A program made the position numbers and the translations under genes. Positions 34,313 through 45,026 of a DNA stretch of 64,000 bases are shown here, piece by piece (position 1 is the first letter of the stretch; every line of letters begins with the position of its first letter). The notes below the pieces were generated by a model. The model was not told where the DNA came from. It made no database searches and saw only the letters and a program-made list of their open reading frames with translations. Source of the DNA: Aurantiochytrium sp. KH105 (lineage: Eukaryota > Sar > Bigyra > Thraustochytrida > Thraustochytriidae); the NCBI GenBank assembly GCA_003116975.1, contig BGKB01000021.1, positions 806,001 through 870,000 on the forward strand, in the 5' to 3' direction.

Positions 34313-37258
34313 TCATAGTTGCGAACGTCGGAGCTTGGCCGCGCGAGAGCAAAGCTCATCGATAAGCGCGGGCTGCTCATGACCGACCATGTACACTCCA
34401 TCTCTCACTTCCGCATCTGTCCTCCACGCTAAAAGCTCGAGATGATCAAAGAGCCTGCTTTGCACCTCTTGGCTGCATGTGCCAACGTGTTCCGCATCAG
34501 CAGCATTAAAAGTACTTTCATCGGCCACCGCCAAAAGAGGAAGCCCACTCAGGCGTTCGCTTGTCAAGGCATCGTGAACATCGCCGAGACAATCTTGCTC
34601 CAGCACGACGATAACCACGGATGAACCCTCGTGAATGGCATCTTGAAATAGACTTGCCAGGACGCTAGCAGTTGCGTTCATGTTGAGCTTGGCGACAAGC
34701 TCTATTGCAATTTCCGAATCTGACTTCGCTACAACCGTGATGAAGAGAGGATCTGCCACTAGGTTCAGCAATGGACGAAGCGGTGGACTTACCTGAAAGC
34801 CCGCATGATCAGCGAGCGCTCTTAGCATTGCACCCTCCTCAAAAAGACGTCGGCGATACGGGATGCGCTTGCAAAGGGACAGAGCATCTTCTGCGAGGCC
34901 AAAGACTTCGTCCGGGTCAAAGTTGAGGTTTTCGAGAGTCTCACGAAGCTGACGCGTATCCCGCGTGCGACGAAGAGATCTCGCCTTTGCCGTAGCTTCA
35001 TCGAGCTGCTTGCGTCGAGATGAAGTTTGCTCGGAGTTGTACTGTGTCTGGCATGAGCGAAGGAAATCACCTGCGCTTGCGATTTCGTCATCAAGGTCGA
35101 CATTGCCTTCTTCCCAGTCCACGGCATACCACGGCTCGTCAATGCCCGTGTGCCAGGGGCTGAAGCGCTGGTCTTCTTCTACAATAAAGATAATGTGCTC
35201 TTGCAGCCCACCAGGCATGCTGGAAAAGTAGTCAATGGCGAACTTTAGTCCTGCAAGGCAAAAAGGGCGGAACAGTGCATCTCTCGTCAGCACCAAAACA
35301 AAGCGTTGCGAAGAAAGCACACCTCGCTGGAGACTTGCAAGAGTTACCTCGGCAGCACGCATCTCCGTCCAAGCCGACATCTGGTATCGCTCAAGGCCAA
35401 ACGCAAGATTCTTGACGATTCCTGCTGCCTGTTTTTGCATGTGCGACAGGAAAAAGTGGTACGTGGAAAGCTCGGTCAGCTCATTGTGCCCATGATCCGC
35501 GTAAAAGTCGCCTGTGTGATCGTCTCTCGAAAGCCTGGGACTTGTTGTGCGACCAAAAAGACTAAAACGTCTCGGAACGACCAGCTTGTGGAGACTCAAC
35601 ACCCGACGCGAAAAGCGCATCTTCTTTTTGCGATGTTCGTCGCGCCCAGTCCCGCTCGTAGCGACGTCCTCGTCGTTGTCCGGTCTGCATGAGTTTTGCG
35701 GCCGCATGAAATCGAAAAAAGGATGATCCTCGATGATTTGCGTCATGGTGATGCGCTCCGTAGGGTCGCCGCGTAAGCAAAGCCGAACGAGGTCGCGAGC
35801 GGCCTCGATGGCATCAGCTCCATCTGGTCTCAGACCGTCACCTTTGCCCATGCCATTGGTTTCGCGTTCTTTGATGCGCTCAAGGCGTTCATCGTCAAGA
35901 GCAAGCCAGTTCATGAGCTCTGTCTTATCCCGGCCATGCACCAGGTTATCGTCAGATTCATCGACCATGAAAAGCTTGGTCCCGGAGAGCATTTGATAGA
36001 GAACGACGCCAAAGCCCCAGACGTCCAAGGCCGCACTGACAGTGGGGGCCTTGTCCGCGCGGGCTTGGTGAAGAAAGTGCCATTGTGCCAGCTCGGGAGC
36101 TGCATACCCGGTGCTTACCTTTTCCGTGACTCTCTGTGTGTTCAGAATCCGAGCCGAGGCGTCAAGGTCAATGAGCTGCCACTCCTCGTCGGGCGGACCA
36201 TTGAGCTGCTCCCCTGTCACGTTCTGCCGCCACGCATCGGGTACCTGGACCCGGCCGCCCGTCTCATCATAAGAGAACGTGTGTTGCTTCGAGGGAACCA
36301 CACGCACAGCGTTGCGCGGCTTGATGTCGCCATGGATACGCCCGCTGTTGTGGAGATCTTGGATGGCCAACGCGATTTTGTACGCGATCGTGCGAACTTT
36401 TTGCAAGTCTCGTCCTGCAAAGCGCTCTGTGTTGATGGCTTCGAAAAGCGAACGAGAGCCTTGCGGCATGACCAGACATTGCTCATCATCGAGACGCGCA
36501 GCAAAGTCGGGATCTTCGCGGTGTAGAAGCGGCAAGCAGCCCGCAAGTGACGCCCCTCCTTCACTTGAGATGTCGCGCGCAGAAATCTCACGGGCATATT
36601 GCTCTTTGTCACGCATGATTTTGAGCGCCACCGCCTTGTTAGTCTGGATGTCGGTTGCATAGTGCACCGCGCAAGTCTTGGACTCGTGAACGGGGGGGCC
36701 TTTCGCGACACTGTAGCGATCAAGATAGGTGCCATAGGTTTTGGCCCACTCTTTTGTATTCTGGTTGGTTAATGCAAGTGAACGAACGCTCCGTCCACCG
36801 CTGTCCTCGGCCTCCATCATGAGTAGCCCATCTCTGAGAAGCAAGCGCTTCGCAATAATTTCCTCGCAAAAGCGCTGTTGAAGGGAGAAATGCGTTGTCG
36901 TCTGATGGCAGTCAAAAAGCGCATGAACCAACGGAAGTTTATTCTCCTCATCCGCAAACATCGTGCCTTCGTATGCGTCGCTCACGCCGACTTGAAGCCA
37001 CAGCTCGTGGTCAGCAAAGAGAGAGTGCATCTCCGGATCCTCCTTGTCGAGGACGAGAACAAAGGTTGCAAAGATATGCGCATTGGTTCTTGCCAATGTA
37101 TGTGCGAGCTGAGTCCATTGACCTGTTTCTGCGTCAAAAAGGCTATGGCGAATTCGCTGCACTCGCACGTCGCCTCGCTGCAAAGAGAAGAGCTCGTCCC
37201 AGCTCAGGTCTTGGGGAAGTTCAGGCAGGCCTCTAACGCGAGATGTGATGGTCAGCAT
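34313..37258 (-). CDS. protein kinase-TIR ORF, probably the last exon of an LRR-kinase-TIR gene
   Basis: Read alone from the first ATG (37258) it gives 981 residues. Residues ~185-507 are a protein kinase: VALKIM (Lys213), catalytic loop IHGDIKPRNAV (Asp311, Asn316; HGD instead of HRD), metal-binding DLD (364-366) in place of DFG, YAAPEL as APE, and DVWGFGVVLYQML. All catalytic residues are present, so it may be active. Residues ~588-790 form a TIR-like domain (TYHFFLSHMQ, RFVLVLTRDALF, FRPFCLAGLKFAI). Where active TIR NADases have Glu (WCxxE), this has Gly, so NAD+ cleavage is unlikely and an adaptor role is likelier. The last ~190 residues have no recognised domain. Splicing from the upstream LRR exons would enter at 37232, removing nine residues of this ORF. 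Confidence 0.85.
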   Translation of the reverse strand: MLTITSRVRGLPELPQDLSWDELFSLQRGDVRVQRIRHSLFDAETGQWTQLAHTLARTNAHIFATFVLVLDKEDPEMHSLFADHELWLQVGVSDAYEGTMFADEENKLPLVHALFDCHQTTTHFSLQQRFCEEIIAKRLLLRDGLLMMEAEDSGGRSVRSLALTNQNTKEWAKTYGTYLDRYSVAKGPPVHESKTCAVHYATDIQTNKAVALKIMRDKEQYAREISARDISSEGGASLAGCLPLLHREDPDFAARLDDEQCLVMPQGSRSLFEAINTERFAGRDLQKVRTIAYKIALAIQDLHNSGRIHGDIKPRNAVRVVPSKQHTFSYDETGGRVQVPDAWRQNVTGEQLNGPPDEEWQLIDLDASARILNTQRVTEKVSTGYAAPELAQWHFLHQARADKAPTVSAALDVWGFGVVLYQMLSGTKLFMVDESDDNLVHGRDKTELMNWLALDDERLERIKERETNGMGKGDGLRPDGADAIEAARDLVRLCLRGDPTERITMTQIIEDHPFFDFMRPQNSCRPDNDEDVATSGTGRDEHRKKKMRFSRRVLSLHKLVVPRRFSLFGRTTSPRLSRDDHTGDFYADHGHNELTELSTYHFFLSHMQKQAAGIVKNLAFGLERYQMSAWTEMRAAEVTLASLQRGVLSSQRFVLVLTRDALFRPFCLAGLKFAIDYFSSMPGGLQEHIIFIVEEDQRFSPWHTGIDEPWYAVDWEEGNVDLDDEIASAGDFLRSCQTQYNSEQTSSRRKQLDEATAKARSLRRTRDTRQLRETLENLNFDPDEVFGLAEDALSLCKRIPYRRRLFEEGAMLRALADHAGFQVSPPLRPLLNLVADPLFITVVAKSDSEIAIELVAKLNMNATASVLASLFQDAIHEGSSVVIVVLEQDCLGDVHDALTSERLSGLPLLAVADESTFNAADAEHVGTCSQEVQSRLFDHLELLAWRTDAEVRDGVYMVGHEQPALIDELCSRAAKLRRSQL

Positions 37259-37286: not shown

Positions 37287-40200
37287 CTAGTAAACGTACC
37301 CGACAGTAGCCAAGCTGTTTTTGTGAAGGAGAAGTAACTCCGCCACCGCAGCGATACCTGGGGGGCTCATCTTGTTGAACCCGAAGCTGCGCATGATAAT
37401 CGGGGCGACACAGCAAGGAAACGTTAGTATCTATCCTCGCACTACCGTCGTCGTCTGTTCAAGTTATCCTATCTTCGTCACTCTTGTCTACTCGGACTTG
37501 GATCCACTTTTTGCATACACCCTTGCGGACAGTCAACGTACAAGAATTCCAAAAGGGAGCTGTGCTTGCCAACGCCGCGTCCGAGCGCAACAGCGCCCTC
37601 ATCGCCAATTTCATTGGACTGGAGCCTGTGCGTATGGGTTGCGTGACAAGGCGCGCGGAATGTCAGTGTCTATTCTGTTGCCATGGCGGCTGCTATGGCC
37701 TTCGTGCTTTCCCGCCATGATGTCCTCCGTCGTTGCCACCTTCCTGGCATCGCATGTAGATCCTCAAACTCACATTAGTACTTGGAGCGATGTGTTTCTA
37801 GCCAACTTCTTTCCTAGCTCCACAGCACCCTCGGTACCGAGTTTATTGTCCGAGAGACTACGCACAATTCGCGCGAAGAGTGTTCAATGTCAGCGCTTGA
37901 CCTTCATTTCCTGGCACCACCTGCACGCCGCAATGAACTGCGACTTTCAGCCCCAGCTTACCTGAGAGAGATGAGCGACTTGTTCTTGGCCAGTCCATCT
38001 GCGAGGGCAACAGCTCCATCAGCGCCAATCAGGTTCGCAGTAAGTCTTATTGTGAAATTTGTGGTCATGATCTGTCAGAACAAGTTTCTCCTGCACGCCA
38101 TTGCTCTCATACTTACTCTAATGAGGTCAACGACTTGTTCTTGCCCAAACCCTCCCCGAGCCCAGCAGCACCCAGGTCGCCGATTGCGTTGACGGAAAGA
38201 CTGCGTATTTGCGGTGGTAATGGTGAGCGCGAAGGGTCAGTGTCTTTCCGATGTTTTTCTTTGACACGCGCACGAGTGCATGGCAATAATGGCCGCCCAC
38301 GTGCATCAATTTATGCCGATTTCTGACCAGAATTAGAGTGCAACTTACTTTAAGTCCGTGAGCGAGTTGTTTTTGGCCAAACCTTTTCCGAGCTCAATGG
38401 CGCCCTCGTCCCCGATCTCGTTGCCGTAGAGCCTGTGAGTGCGAACAAACGATGGAAAATGGCGTTGCGCACGCAGAATGTCAGTCGCTATTCATGACCA
38501 GAGGTTTGGCACCCACTCCTCCTTTTAATCTTAATAAAAGTATGAACTCGAAAAGGTCGAGCTTGGGACTTACTTTAATATGGTCAGCGAGTTGTTTTGG
38601 GCCAAGCCTCTCCCGAGCCCGACAGCACCGTCGTCGCCGATGTCGTTAGACTCCAGTCTGCTCACATCCAGCGGATGTTAGGTAAAAGAATCGTCAGTGT
38701 TGGGTTCCAGGCCCTTCCCTTCATGTGATTATGTCCTCTTTGCTTTCCTGTAATGCATACAGAGCGATCCAGGCTATGGAGGAGGATAATCACGCTCAAC
38801 TTACGTCAAGGTCGACAGCGTTTTGCTCTTCGCAAGAGCTTTCCCGAGCGCAGCAGCGCCCGCATCGTCGATCTGGTTCATAGAAAGACTGGGTACGAAA
38901 TTCCGGGCAGCGAAAGCGGAATGTCAGTGCCGCCCACCACCTTGCTGACTTTTCATCCATTTATAAATCTTGCGCTCAAGCGCTCTTGCCGCTCTTTTGT
39001 CCACCACCACGAACCACACCACCACCCGCCACGCATCCGGACTTCTTTCCTTTTTGGTGGCACCTCAGGGTGGCAGCTAGGGCAAGCGCAGACGAAAACG
39101 TACCCCAACGAGCTAAGCGAGTTGCTCTCGCCAACGCCTTCTCCAATTGCAACAGCACCTTTGTTTGCAATGGCATTTGTTTGAAGACTGCGCGTGATCA
39201 TCAGTGCGTGGTGAGCTCTATGGCTGCCCTACATGTGGGCGTTCCAGTGTGCTCCCTATTCGGTCTTATTCGCGGAAACGAATTGCTAACTTACTTCAAT
39301 TCCTTGAGCGAGGTATTCTTACCCAAGGCTTTCCCGAGGCCAACAGCACCCTCGTCGCCAATCTGGTTCCGGCTCAAGCTATGTTGATGCGTTGTAGTAA
39401 CGACCAAGAAGAGTGTCAGTTTTCCAACGTCAGCAGAACGCCTTTATCTTATCACCAACACACCGACTTTATGCCAATGCACGCGCATTTAAGCCGCAGG
39501 GCACTCGGACATTCGCAGCCAACTTACTCCAGCGACGCAAGAGACTTGCTCTGGCTCAAGCCTTCCCCGAGTCCAAAAGCTCCCGAGGCGTCAATGGTGT
39601 TGCGCTGCAAACTGTATGTCGACTCGCGTGCATTGAGTCAGTCAAGACTCTCATTTCGTTGTGCATCCACGCAGACTGCATTGCATGAACTCTCAATTGG
39701 AACATTTCCGACTCGAATGACTCAGCATCCAACGTACTTTAGACTCGCGAGCGAAGGATGCTCGCTCAATGCTTTTCCGAGCGCCTGAGCACCTGCAGCG
39801 CCGACTTTGTTGTGGGCAAGGCTGCGCATGAGTAGAGACGAAAGCAAGGATCGCGAATCATCAGTTTAGCTTCATTCTTGCCTGGCCTCATGTGGATGAA
39901 AGAATTCATTCACGATTTCGTTGCTGCCGCACTTTTGCGTGTACTCGCATCTATCACGCTGATTCCATGCCTTTCATTTGCGATGACAACGTACTCGAGA
40001 ACTTTGAGTGAGTTGTTCTTGCCAAGGCCTTCTGCAAGCCCAGCAGCGCCAACACTGTCAACTCGGCAGCCACAAAGACTGTGGAATGAGCTCGAAGCGT
40101 CAGTACTCTTCCTTGCAGGCAGCTCATCTCTCTCCTCTTGCCTTTTCTTTGCCCTCTTCCAACAGTTTTTGCTCATTGCCCTTGTCGCGTGCGCACAAGA

Positions 40201-42398
40201 CAAGATTTTTCGGACGCTTGAACTCACTTCAACTCCTTGAGTGAGCTGTTCCTGCTCAATCCTTTGCCAATACCAACCGCGCCCTCATTGCTGATGGGAT
40301 TGGACTCAAGACTGCGCACAACGATTGCGATGATGACCAATAGATGTAAGAGTCTGCTCAGATGATGCCAACGACGCCAGCGTATGCGCTATCTTGCATC
40401 TGTACATGCCATTTGCATAATCCTTGTTGAAACTTACTTTAGCAAGCATAGCGATTTGTTGGCACCCAAACCTTCACCGAGTCCTGCTGCCCCCAAAGCG
40501 CCAATGTCGTTCGATCGAAGGCTGTACAAGATATATTGTGGCAGTGAACATAATGCGTGAGTGTTAATTCTCGAAGACGCATTCATTTACCTCGACGCGT
40601 GCACGTGTGTTATCGAGGTCTCACTATCTCTAGTGAGGAACTTTGACACGAGTCGACTCTTTCCAAACTCACTTTAACGATGTCAGCGACGTCATTTCGC
40701 CCAGGGCTTCCCCGAGCACAATTGCGCCTTCGTTGCCGATGTTGTTATTACGCAGACTGAGCATAGCCAACGCGGCGATGAGCGCAGAAAGTCAATATTC
40801 CGTGGACAATGAGGCTCTTCTTCCAACATGGATGAGGCGACCCACTTACACTATCTCCTTGAGGAATTTGCTCTTGCACAGCAAGTCTGCGATCGATTGG
40901 CATCCAACCACGCTGACGTCGGAAGCCTGGAGACTGTGCATTTTTCGTTTCGGGAGATGATGAACAAGGAGCGTTAAGAATACTTCTGTTTTTGAATCAT
41001 TTCGTGGCCTACAAACGCCCCGAGCAGCTGTTGCGATTGTGGCACATTCACAGGAGCTTTTGCACGACCACAAACTTACTTGAGCGTCGCGAGCTTCGCA
41101 TCTGGCGCAAGAGTCTTTGCGAGCGCCAGAGCATACTCATCGCCGCTGGAATCCCGGCGAAAGATCGAGCCTCCTAGACTGCGGTTTGTGAAGTTATGGA
41201 GAGCAGACTCTGTTAGTGTTCGAGCAACTGTAGCCCCGACGTTGTCATTTTACTCGCAGAAACTTGTAGCACGAAATCAAGCCTTTGGTATTGCAATAAA
41301 GAGAGAGGAAGAAATGACCAGCTTGGCATGTGCAACCACGCCTCGAAGTTCCGATTGCGATAGCTAATTTGCGAACGAAGCCTGACTCACCTTAACTTTC
41401 TGAGCGTGGTGTTTACGTTCAGCGCTTCTGCGAGCGCAGTGAGGCCCGCCTTCCCGAGGTTGTTGCATTCAAGTCTGCATTTATATGTGCAGTGCAAGCG
41501 ACATATTAGTCCACAACTCCTTTCGCTGCAACTTGATCGTTCATAGCGGCTTTTATGCATGCCAATGTCGTCGGAGACCTTCAGAGGCTGATCGAACTTA
41601 CGAAAGCGAGGTAAGAGTGCAATTCTGGCGAAGTGCTTCGGCCAGAGCCTCACTGCCCTCTTCGCATATTTCGTTGTTTTCAAGACTGATGATCAATGGT
41701 GATTGTCGAATGTTAGACTTTGTTCTTGGGTCGTTGTTATGTTTCGCCTTTTGCCCATGGGGGAGCCGAATGCAACACTAAACAAAAATAGCCTTTGAGC
41801 ATCAAAAAAAGGAGGATGACGAAGATTGCAACGTACCCAAGCGTAAGGAGTGAGGTGTTCTTGCCCAGCTCTTTTCCGAGAGCCATGGCGCCCTCGTCGC
41901 CAATGGTACGATCAGTGAGACTGCGCATCGTTTCATGGATGAGAAGACAAAGTCAGCATTGCAAATTAATGTCAAGTCAGATGGGGATTCTGTGAAAATT
42001 GGAAATCATGTAACGTACATGATCTCTTTGACGCCGATCTGCATCAACTCGATTGCTCTCACCGTTGCGTCCAGTCCGAAAAGTCCTCTCTCGACCACTT
42101 TTGAGGATGCCTCATCTTCATTGTCAGCTTGATCGCTATCGCCGTCGCCATCGTCCTTTTCCTCTTCGTCCTCGTCTCGACCTTCTTCTTCTTCTTCTTC
42201 TTCGTCGTCGTCGTCTTCGTTGTACGGGTTCTCCTCCATTTGAGAACCGTGATCGTCAGGAATGTCATTGACCTCAACCATTTCGGATTCGTTGGATGCG
42301 GTATCGTCTTCTTCGGCCACCCCGGGCGCGGAAGAAGGCGTCCGATCAGCACGCTGGGCGCAAGACGCCAGTTTCATACGCGCAGAAAACTTCCTCAT
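37287..42398 (-). CDS. 22-exon leucine-rich-repeat gene, one repeat per exon (probably 5' part of LRR-kinase-TIR)
   Basis: No long ORF exists here, but I could reconstruct 22 exons. Exon 1 (42019-42398, 380 nt) encodes an acidic start (MRKFSARMKL, then Glu/Asp runs). Exons 2-22 each encode one ribonuclease-inhibitor-type LRR, roughly LxxNxIGxxGAxxLGxxL then xxNxSLxxL, as in NLRC3-like proteins. Nineteen are exactly 84 nt; exon 5 has 99 nt and exon 22 has 87 nt. Every donor is GTAAG, GTACG or GTGAG, every acceptor ends in AG, and all introns interrupt after codon position 2. Introns are 71-215 nt. If the final donor is not used, the frame stops at 37287-37289, giving 724 residues. If it is used, the protein continues into the kinase-TIR ORF (1,693 residues). 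The exon positions are listed with the repeat array. Confidence 0.85.
37300..41920 (-). repeat. array of 21 LRR exons with identical phase
   Basis: Exon positions, 5' to 3' on the minus strand: 41837-41920, 41602-41685, 41391-41474, 41080-41178, 40850-40933, 40673-40756, 40438-40521, 40228-40311, 39995-40078, 39738-39821, 39528-39611, 39295-39378, 39104-39187, 38805-38888, 38574-38657, 38349-38432, 38117-38200, 37962-38045, 37774-37857, 37542-37625, 37300-37386. Many introns carry ACTGACA on the coding strand 30-50 nt before the acceptor (plus-strand positions 37661-37667, 38479-38485, 38922-38928, 39414-39420), a good branch-point candidate. Repeat sequences have diverged while exon length and phase have stayed fixed. 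The two repeats at exons 5 and 6 are the least regular. Confidence 0.88.
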
Positions 42399-45026
42399 GG
42401 TTCGTCGTCTTCAAGAAAAAACAAGACCAGCCAGCCTTGGCAAAAGAGGTATGTATTCACGGCCAGCTCGCACGCCTGCGTCGGCTGTTTTTCACTTGAG
42501 GTCCGCTGTCTCTTGCTCGTCGCAGCTGGCAGCTGACGCCGCGTCGCCCTCTCACGCCTCGCTTCGGGCCTCTCGCGCGCTTTGTCCGCGCGTCCGTCCG
42601 CTCGCTCGCTCGCTCGCCTTGTCCGCGCGATGCCGCTCTGCTGATCGCCTCGATGCCGCTCGGCAGCGCATGCGGTGCGAGGAAACCAAAAGGGTACCTG
42701 TGCCTGCAAGCTGGAGTGAGCTCCGGATCTGGACAGGCAGCCCGCTGCCAACTGCACGGAGGCTGCTTGCTCCTCGCGTAGCAAGCGTGTGCAAAGCGCA
42801 AAGGAAAGTCGAGCAGAGCAGAGCAGAGCAGAGCAGAGCAGAGCAGAGCAGAGCAGAGCAGAACAGAGCAGAGCAGAGCGGACAAAATGTGTTCACTGCA
42901 GCTGGCTGTGGAATCGAAGCGGTTAACCCACTTTAAGGACGCACGCCCTTATAAAACAGTTCTATGTTGGCTGTTTGCAAGCGTGGCAAGGGCCCGCGTG
43001 TACACAATGAAGTAACTCCGCTTCATCGTCCAAGATCGTATGTTTGTTGCGGGAGGCTGATGTTTCCAAGGATCAACAACAGCTTGTCCAAGACGAGATT
43101 CGAATCACTTTCGCCCCCATGTGCATCAGGGCATCGAGATGACATGAGCGCATGGCTGTATCGCAAATAAGTGCTTGCCAAGTGTCAATGGTACACGATG
43201 TCATAAGATTGGTTCGAAATCAAGCAACTAGATGCACAAGGACCACACTCGACGTCTTGTGCAAACGCCGGGCCTAGGGTCTACTTACAGCTTGCCCTTT
43301 TACAATATAAGATGCAGTTTTCGCGAACGCACACAGAATGGTCTTCTCCTCTTCGCAGAACGAGACCGATACGATCCTTTGTCGCGGACACTCACTTTCA
43401 GCCAGCAGATTTTTGCATCTCCTTTCACCGAGATCAGCTGCAGCACGGCCGCTTCGCAATCGTCTCCTTGCCGCTTCTCCACCTGGCTAGAGCCCGCCCA
43501 CAAAGCGTCCTCGTGCGCGCTCCTCGCAGCATCTCTCTCCATTGCCATCGCCATCCTCATCCCATTCTCTTTCATCATCATCATCATCATCAACAACAAC
43601 AACAACAACAACAACTTAATCATCCCCATCCATCATCCCCATCACCATCGCTATTGCAGCCTGCTGCTGGCTGCGAAATCGGTGACCACTCACTCCCAGC
43701 TCGCGCCCCCGGACCGTCCCGCGCCCCTCTGTCCGCCGTCGTGCGCCCCTGCCCCACAGCTGTGTGTTCTCGCGCGTCACGTGTCGGTCCCTCTTCAAGC
43801 TCGAAATGCGACCTGCCACTGCCGCTGCACGGATGTCGCCTCGGTGCCAACGCGTCAGCGCGCGGGGCGTCATCGCCGCGCAGCAGCCGCCTCAGCCGGA
43901 GAGCCTGCAGCAGCTGCAGCAGCTGCAGCAGTTGGTTGGCCGTGTGTCACGGTGGCAGTCGCGCGGCGCACCGTGAGCAAATCGTCCCCCCTGACCAGTG
44001 GCTGCCGGTGGTTAGGTAGGTATATGCATACGCTGGCAGTAGCCATGGAGACGCGCGAAGAGCTCGAAAGCCGCTGCCTCCGGTCCATGCGCATGCGTGC
44101 CGCGCGCGTGCGCCAGTCTGCAACCCGGCGGACGCGGCCGCCTTGGCGCGTCTGGAGGGGGCCAGCTGCAGCTGCAGGGGCGGCGGCGGTTTCTTTCCTA
44201 CATCTTGAATGGCCGGCTGCGCGGCACGAAGTTTGGGTTTTTGGAAAAGGGCCAGGGCGGGCCTAGCGTCGGCCTAGCTGACTCCTAGCGGCGCCGACCT
44301 TCTCCCGACTCAGGTGCCGGGAGCGATCCCGAGACTTGCCTTGCAGTTGCTCTTGCTTGCAGCGCGACATCCGCCCTGCCGCGAGATCGATTGGAGTCGC
44401 GACAGACAGGTCGGTCGGAGGTGGGCGGGAATCGCGCCTTCTGTCAGCGCAGCCGCGAAAGACGGCGTTGCAGCGCGCTGCCGCCGCTGCCGCGGCTGCG
44501 GATCGGTCGAGGATCGTTTCGATGTTCGCGTCATTAGACCGACCGAGTGACGACCGGGGTACGCTGCGAGTCTCCCCGCTCATTCTGCGCCGCCGCCCCT
44601 CCTCGTCCCCGTCTCCGGTCCCGCGTCGCAAGCTTCTCCCGTGCACCCTACCGGCGCCGACGCTCGTGGAGGTCGTGCGAGCATAAGGGGGTAATCTGCG
44701 AGTGCGGAGACAGACGTTCACGGAGAGACGCAGCGCGCCCCCGGGCGTCGATGGCGCGCGACGCACAGAAGGGAGGAAGGAAGGAAGGCAGGAGGAACCG
44801 GGGGGAGAAGAAAAAGAAAGTTACTGCGCATAATGAGCGGCCTCGGGAGAGAGGCGTTGACTGCCCCGCGGTCGTTCACTGTTCGCCGCCGCAGCCGCGC
44901 GCAGGAGGGCGCGGCAAACCCGCAACGCAGCGAGCCCGTGCGAGAGCCCCGTGCGAGAGCCCCGTGCGCGCGCGCGGAGACTGCGAGCGAGAGCGAGAGC
45001 GAGAGCGAGAGGAAGCCGCGGGCGCG
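42399..45026. other. 2.6-kb region between the LRR gene and ABCG copy B
   Basis: Divergent genes flank this stretch, so it holds both promoters. A GAGCA pentamer array lies at 42811-42879. ATC and AAC trinucleotide runs lie at about 43575-43615. The last ~800 bp are GC-rich with a GAGAGC-type run at 44990-45015. ORFs up to 344 codons are present, but they overlap in several frames, are rich in Ser/Arg/Pro and show no domain, so I call no gene. Confidence 0.5.
42811..42879. repeat. GAGCA pentanucleotide microsatellite
   Basis: About fourteen copies of GAGCA, with one substituted unit near 42861, upstream of the LRR gene start. Confidence 0.9.

Follow-up and report, generated by a model that had tools for sequence, protein, structure and literature searches.

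A split gene for a probable receptor that continues past its repeats

What kind of gene is built of a long run of exons that each carry a single leucine-rich repeat (LRR), and what might such a plan be for? The question is raised by a stretch of 64,000 nucleotides (nt) from Aurantiochytrium sp. KH105, hereafter the window (positions 806001-870000 of contig 21, C21; the assembly comprises 76 Mb in 367 contigs, and all C-numbers below denote contigs of it), in which a first-pass annotation had placed a hidden LRR gene between 37300 and 42398 on the minus strand. Our analyses point to a larger gene and a wider context. We consider it probable that the window gene is a member of a family of cytosolic recognition-receptor kinases that diversified as symmetric LRR exons were duplicated and exchanged. 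The family's architecture is best explained by a three-block plan, namely a fixed five-exon LRR head, an expandable array of 84-nt exons, and an end block in which an 87-nt tail exon is followed by a single large effector exon.

The window gene comprises 23 exons on the minus strand, running from 42398 down to 34313 and separated by spliceosomal-type GT-AG introns. The exon table confirmed the 21 one-LRR exons of the first-pass annotation, which lie between 41920 and 37300: 19 are exactly 84 nt long, one is 99 nt and one 87 nt, each encodes one repeat of the ribonuclease-inhibitor (RI) type, and every one is entered after codon position 2 (phase 2). The claimed length of 28 residues per repeat holds for 19 of them, the other two having 33 and 29 residues. 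Together with exon 1 they make up the 22 exons of the range 42398-37300. The gene is not confined to that range, being completed by exon 23 (37232-34313), which follows in phase after a 67-nt intron and carries an open frame of 972 amino acids (aa); the frame containing it has 984 codons counted from the first TTG. Because this kinase-TIR frame follows the last exon first listed at a distance of 67 nt, and in phase with it, an LRR-only gene was rejected. The gene ends in a kinase-TIR exon and is part of a large family. Nor would it escape annotation based on open reading frames, as had been supposed, since the 972-aa frame directly downstream belongs to it. The accompanying statement that no frame exceeds about 130 codons agrees with the coding strand within the range, where no frame appeared at a cut-off of 150 codons, and is wrong for the plus strand, where frames of 197, 194, and 224 codons lie in or across it.

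Spliced in silico, the 23 exons give 5,082 nt and a single frame of 1,693 aa without internal stop. Retention of any of the 22 introns would introduce an in-frame stop, and 17 of the 22 are not multiples of three in length. Splicing in vivo would presumably use the predicted borders, which are as follows (from the exon table, with other support named where it exists):

42019..42398, minus: exon 1, 380 nt; ATG start (also in the C68 copy), acidic low-complexity N-terminus
41837..41920, minus: exon 2, head LRR 1, 84 nt
41602..41685, minus: exon 3, head LRR 2, 84 nt
41391..41474, minus: exon 4, head LRR 3, 84 nt
41080..41178, minus: exon 5, irregular head LRR 4, 99 nt (102 nt in nine paralogous loci; family scan)
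40850..40933, minus: exon 6, head LRR 5, 84 nt
40673..40756, minus: exon 7, array LRR 1, 84 nt
40438..40521, minus: exon 8, array LRR 2, 84 nt
40228..40311, minus: exon 9, array LRR 3, 84 nt
39995..40078, minus: exon 10, array LRR 4, 84 nt
39738..39821, minus: exon 11, array LRR 5, 84 nt
39528..39611, minus: exon 12, array LRR 6, 84 nt
39295..39378, minus: exon 13, array LRR 7, 84 nt
39104..39187, minus: exon 14, array LRR 8, 84 nt
38805..38888, minus: exon 15, array LRR 9, 84 nt
38574..38657, minus: exon 16, array LRR 10, 84 nt
38349..38432, minus: exon 17, array LRR 11, 84 nt
38117..38200, minus: exon 18, array LRR 12, 84 nt
37962..38045, minus: exon 19, array LRR 13, 84 nt
37774..37857, minus: exon 20, array LRR 14, 84 nt
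37542..37625, minus: exon 21, array LRR 15, 84 nt
37300..37386, minus: exon 22, tail LRR, 87 nt (87-nt tail exon in eight loci including the window; family scan)
34313..37232, minus: exon 23, 2920 nt; kinase domain, TIR-like domain, conserved C-terminal region, stop (open frame, Pfam, C68 copy, module alignment)

An LRR score matrix for 84-nt units bounded by AG and GT, built from the same 19 regular exons of the window gene, recovered 19 units in the window region and 19 in a homologous copy on C68. Scores of 10 or more occurred neither in 200 dinucleotide shuffles nor elsewhere on either strand of the window; scores of 0 or more occurred 8 times in the 200 shuffles together and once in the rest of the window. 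These two controls rule out a product of chance or a strand artefact. The intron-poor character assumed for this genome fits the undivided 972-aa kinase-TIR frame and the open frames around LRR_6 matches, 49 of the 51 listed matches (150 of 692 candidates scored) lying inside frames of at least 187 aa.

A probable LRR sensor joined to kinase and TIR-like domains

The spliced N-terminal 721 aa matched LRR_6 (PF13516) with an E-value of 4.7e-72, and the repeats follow the RI-type pattern, a 28-residue LxxLxLxxNxL...G...L unit with an LRR_6 profile. The 972-aa product of exon 23 matched Pkinase (PF00069; E 3.1e-21) and contains, in the window copy, the motifs VALKIM, HGDIKPRN, DLD (replacing DFG), and APE, which we take to have their usual functional roles in kinases. 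The catalytic loop HGDIKPRN, DLD, and APE are identical in all nine aligned kinase-TIR modules. Pfam detected neither NACHT nor NB-ARC, whether in exons 1-22 (searched to E 0.01) or in exon 23 (to E 1), and reported no Roc-COR for the window gene, though it did so for the array genes on C303 and C342. In a hydropathy scan, with no dedicated predictor applied, no membrane segment or signal peptide appeared, the maximum over 19 residues being 1.41 in the window protein and 1.47 in C68. Since no 19-residue stretch of the window protein exceeds 1.41 and its N-terminus is polar, then acidic, the predicted protein is probably cytosolic. By analogy with other LRR receptors, the LRR stack would most likely be the sensor and the kinase-TIR part the output.

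The TIR-like domain fits this assignment less comfortably. TIR_2 was weak in the window copy (E 6.6e-5; 23.8 bits, under the Pfam curated cut-off of 28), sequence matching to PDB entries gave only insignificant best E-values of 0.17 and 0.36 for a TIR domain, and at one site the window and C68 copies have Gly where seven of the nine aligned modules have Glu. Two relatives scored above the cut-off, with 33.3 bits for the paralog on C9 and 55.3 for the ROCO copy on C303. At window positions 35246-35260, within exon 23, the window and C68 copies read CLAGL, and the seven paralogous modules LAEL. We take the Glu of the WC..E-type motif to be the catalytic residue of TIR NADases, a position assigned here by eye; if the Gly site corresponds to it, the window copy may signal by its kinase or as a scaffold only.

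Outside the coding region, a run of CTGCT-type five-base repeats occupies 42811-42880, about 410-480 bp upstream of the start codon.

Conservation and selection between the two copies

Contig C68 holds a homologous copy of the window gene at 91-92% identity, with exons 95.4% and introns 92.1% identical (computed with two exon borders one base off). The C68 copy forms an uninterrupted frame of 1,699 aa with the ATG start kept, and all 22 donors and all 22 acceptors are preserved between the two. Eighteen indel events separate their introns, one falls in exon 1, and none in the LRR exons (1,782 bases) or exon 23 (2,920 bases). The ratio of nonsynonymous to synonymous divergence (dN/dS) was 0.43 for LRR exons, 0.27 for exon 23, and 0.98 for exon 1. 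A decaying or silent copy might account for the Gly in place of the paralogs' Glu, and the family does include damaged members, with C215 lacking most of its effector and one donor site and stops present in the matches of C171, C95, C6, C182, C225, and C5:224937. However, the intact 23-exon frame in both copies, the indel-free LRR exons and exon 23, and their dN/dS of 0.27-0.43 make a pseudogene very improbable.

The ligand-facing residues of RI-type repeats are those around the beta strand. As the introns enter the repeat inside this strand (LxxLxLxxN pattern), the junction codon is itself among the five predicted concave-face positions. Within the 84-nt exons (the 99-nt and 87-nt exons being left out), these five positions per repeat (94 codons) account for 24 nonsynonymous and 5 synonymous changes between window and C68; the remaining 437 codons have 30.5 and 35.5, respectively. 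This corresponds to dN/dS of 1.38 at the concave positions and 0.28 elsewhere (Fisher p = 7e-4 on rounded counts). Judging from these two copies, selection on the window gene appears to be purifying overall, with the predicted ligand-facing beta-strand residues changing fast.

A genome-wide family with arrays of very different length

The same 84-nt phase-2 exons were found at no fewer than 22 loci or contig-end fragments, homologous copies being counted separately: C21 (window), C68, C9, C69, C116, C66, C133, C57, C300, C225, C303, C21:70-74 kb, C5, C215, C143, C217, C342, C42, C101, C90, C29, and C97. Sixteen were analysed by DNA sequence, and C5, C42, C101, C90, C29, and C97 by match coordinates only. 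The list is a lower bound, because the searches score only the best candidates. Seven contigs terminate within an array (C66, C133, C143, C57, C29, C300, and C217), as expected if arrays defeat assembly. Of the 13 loci scanned for the irregular head exon, 11 yielded it (102 nt in nine, 99 nt in the window and C68) and two gave none (C66 and C21:70-74 kb); the 87-nt tail exon was found in 8 of the 16 loci scanned, several others being truncated where their contig ends.

The array proper, from head to tail, numbers 15 exons in the window gene, 53 in C9, 11 in C116, 9 in C69, 2 in C215, and 1 in C225. The C9 gene has 57 exons of 84 nt, jointly in frame without a stop, and with its 102-nt and 87-nt exons reaches 59 LRR exons. 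Duplication is directly visible there: the repeating unit is an exon plus its intron, mostly 310-370 bp, and some adjacent exon pairs are repeated. The exons of C9 are less alike than the introns (mean 81.0% versus 86.0%), introns being more alike in 941 of 1,225 pairs from 50 units. When closest relatives were compared among nine loci, a set not including the window gene, C68, and C21:70-74 kb, 48 of the 53 C9 array exons were closest to each other; for the 40 array exons outside C9, the closest relative lay only in another locus for 23 and only in the same locus for 12, with 5 ties. None of the longer gaps in C9, C69, C116, C225, and C303 held a decayed exon scoring above 20.

The idea in the first-pass annotation that repeat number is free to change is borne out by the symmetry of the exons, by related loci with from one or two to 53 array exons, and by the homologous ROCO loci C303 and C101, which differ in exon number, but not by the window gene itself. 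A search for an exon-number difference from the C68 copy came up empty, each copy having 21 LRR exons, so the window gene shows no repeat-number change, a point against our preferred reading. Likewise, C21:70-74 kb and C5 are 92% identical over 4.1 kb and align in one piece, and therefore no whole exon differs. C215 and C225 are 89% identical, with two and one array exons, and both look damaged; in C215:45000-54999, a donor site is lost and most of the kinase-TIR exon is missing, so it is likely a pseudogene. At C180:120.1-122.9 kb and C53:284.5-287.3 kb, an LRR match and a kinase-TIR match fall within one 1,313-aa open frame with no introns between them; such intron-free LRR-kinase relatives bear on the question of intron gain versus loss.

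An exon plan of this kind might instead serve mainly alternative splicing, with one gene yielding many repeat-number isoforms. Skipping of any symmetric LRR exon would preserve the frame, and precedents are described in the accessible text for human NLRP3 (PMC6642158) and for brown-algal ROCO genes (PMC11378527). Nevertheless, the donors are near-consensus throughout the exon table and do not suggest weak, skippable exons, and we regard this use as rather improbable.

Two effector classes, probable exon exchange, and a probable receptor gene present on one contig only

Among array loci, kinase-TIR exons were found in the window, C68, C97, C9, C57, C29, C69, C225, C300, C42, C116, C21:69 kb, and C5. 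Eleven further matches from the same kinase-TIR search, scored for the effector only, lie on C13, C41, C24, C47, C33, C16, C182, C96, C9:59 kb, C180, and C53. The arrays of C303 and C342 end instead in Roc (E 3e-16 and 1e-15), COR-A, and TIR_2, and the effectors of C101 and C90, known from match coordinates only, are 94-95% identical to this ROCO-TIR type. ROCO-type open frames number in the dozens in the assembly, with at least 62 matching stretches, some genes contributing several of them (53 of the 245 candidates were scored), and indicate a large ROCO expansion.

The 5' flanks of C303 (24.1-29.9 kb) and C101 (240.5-245.0 kb) are 94% identical over 3.1 kb, a match that extends through head exon 2. 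Beyond it, C303 has about 985 bp containing head exons 3-6, whereas C101 and C90 have about 60 bp before the array begins (four array exons in C101, five in C303). Head exons 3-6 of C303 are 91% like the kinase-family locus C225. The simplest account of this difference would be an in-frame transfer of LRR exons between receptor families, the alternative being a loss of head exons 3-6 in C101 and C90.

One whole gene also appears on one contig of a matching pair only. The flanks of the 59-LRR gene of C9 match contig C35 at 90% and 96%, and C9:103375-131472 (28.1 kb, containing the whole gene) stands opposite 54 bp at C35:263667-263722. If both contigs are correct, one homologous chromosome would lack this gene at the site. 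The assembly seems to hold two homologous copies of many loci; hybridity, an old duplication, or misassembly are other explanations for the paired contigs. A bolder proposal is that the family forms a combinatorial repertoire, in which 84-nt cassettes would be traded between kinase-TIR and ROCO-TIR receptors of up to 59 LRRs and receptors gained or lost between homologous chromosomes. We hold this tentatively, with the odds slightly against it. If true, it would amount to a germline-shuffled, possibly individually variable innate repertoire in a eukaryote outside the known examples.

Presence/absence and hypervariable repeats are typical of both allorecognition and defence systems. A role in telling self from other strains, in place of antimicrobial defence, would agree with the whole-gene presence/absence between homologous contigs and with the hypervariable repeats. 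Our observations give no ground for preferring it to pathogen or prey recognition, and a protein without a membrane-like segment fits intracellular sensing better than cell-contact recognition. We consider allorecognition an outside possibility for this family. The evidence does not separate microbe recognition, allorecognition, and isoform-based sensing from one another.

Variable positions across array exons

Seven highly variable positions (2, 3, 5, 8, 9, 25, and 26 of 27; 26%) were picked on C9 and tested on the other sets. They account for 73% of nonsynonymous differences in C9, 77% in C69, 67% in C116, 73% in C303, C66, C57, and C300 pooled, 46% in C21:64-74 kb, and 48% in the window gene (17 LRR exons). 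The 19 regular exons of window and C68 differ by 48 amino acids, 25 of them at these positions. Pairwise comparison of the six sets showed correlated positional variability profiles in every case (15 pairs, rho 0.62-0.92).

Diversifying selection is not the only process that could leave such a pattern, and several results weigh against a simple reading of that kind. Synonymous divergence (pS) is also higher at the seven positions (0.46 versus 0.14 in C9). There, the ratio of nonsynonymous to synonymous differences (pN/pS) is near 1 in most sets: C9 has 1.1, C69 and the pooled loci reach 1.3, and C116, C21:64-74 kb, and the window come out slightly under 1. One position outside the chosen seven, position 22, ranks among the eight most variable in five of six sets. 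For the five concave positions, no excess emerged in C9 (ratio 0.71 versus 0.77); the splice-junction residue, which is one of the five, is nearly always Asn there. Given the higher pS at the seven positions, gene conversion or the reshuffling of older exon variants may account for some of the pattern and probably contributes to it, while we infer that selection, not conversion, is the driver of the variable sites.

A more conservative possibility is that the window gene encodes an ordinary signalling kinase with an LRR scaffold, its exon pattern a by-product of duplicating intron-containing repeats and its variable sites merely relaxed. The 21 LRR exons of both copies, the overall dN/dS below 1, the pN/pS near 1 at variable sites in most sets, and the C21:70-74 kb and C5 pair would all agree with it. 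It is less readily reconciled with the concave-face contrast between window and C68, the wide range of array sizes, the lack of the 59-LRR gene on the matching contig, the apparent exchange of exons from kinase to ROCO genes or back, and the lower similarity of exons than introns in C9. On balance, we think it unlikely, and prefer the reading of a recognition-receptor family with exchangeable exons.

Such a family might work as follows. Arrays would grow and shrink through duplication and loss of exon-plus-intron units, and these changes would stay in frame because the LRR exons are symmetric. Recombination between loci would swap exon units, and head exons have probably also moved between kinase-TIR and ROCO-TIR genes. 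Selection would keep the repeat scaffold and let the predicted concave-face residues diversify. The likely job of the proteins would be intracellular recognition of varied non-self ligands, with a signal passed on via the kinase and the TIR-like part; for the window protein, a recognition role, its ligand, and its output are proposed on this basis, and an immune or non-self role of the family by analogy.

Comparison with known systems

Plant LRR receptor kinases and TIR-NBS-LRR proteins also couple an LRR sensor to a kinase or a TIR domain. They differ from the window protein, in which no transmembrane segment or NB-ARC was found by the searches above, kinase and TIR-like domains occur in one protein, and the LRRs are of the RI type.

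One-LRR-per-exon organisation is already known from human NOD/NLRC genes, brown algae, and Tetrahymena, and the first-pass remark that it is unexpected in a protist was too strong, as both Tetrahymena and the ROCO genes of brown algae offer published examples of phase-2 one-LRR exons (90 and 72 bp, respectively). A literature search on such exon arrays or domain sets, with most subscription papers outside its reach, found only these three precedents. As far as our searches reach, what is novel here is an 84-nt exon type placed before both kinase-TIR and ROCO-TIR effectors.

According to the accessible text of PMC6642158, each 28-aa LRR of most human NOD and NLRC genes is encoded by an exon of its own, whose border has a fixed place in the beta sheet. 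The present genes share with vertebrate NOD/NLRC genes one 28-aa RI-type LRR per frame-preserving exon and a border inside the beta strand. They differ in that no NACHT was found, the LRRs are N-terminal, and the effector is kinase-TIR or Roc-COR-TIR, and their exon plan is probably of independent origin.

Brown-algal ROCO genes, as described in the available part of PMC11378527 (which cites Zambounis 2012 as an earlier source), have 72-bp phase-2 LRR exons subject to shuffling, diversifying selection, and alternative splicing, with LRR-ROC-COR given there as the only arrangement. Tandem single-LRR phase-2 exons N-terminal to an effector and diversifying selection are thus points of likeness, as is Roc-COR in the ROCO branch here (C303, C101, C90, and C342). 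By contrast, the exons here measure 84 nt instead of 72 nt, a TIR domain follows COR, and the arrays also serve kinase-TIR genes.

In Tetrahymena, PMC6564038 reports, in the portion available, arrays of 90-bp phase-2 LRR exons, with between 1 and about 50 in a gene and, in some cases, fusion to other domains, kinases among them. Exact-length symmetric phase-2 exons, exchange between genes, and some protein kinase fusions are common to both systems. Here, however, the exons are 84 nt long, head and tail are fixed, and the effectors are kinase-TIR and ROCO-TIR; the same text gives more than 1,000 LRR genes in most Tetrahymena species, compared with the far fewer array genes found here.

One-repeat LRR exons with beta-strand borders thus occur in vertebrate NLRs, brown algae, Tetrahymena, and now here, to which this family adds traces of exchange between two effector classes and a 28-kb whole-receptor presence/absence within one assembly. 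If their origins are independent, they would represent a convergent route to evolvable recognition proteins, and whether exon symmetry speeds receptor evolution becomes testable through exon counts across strains.

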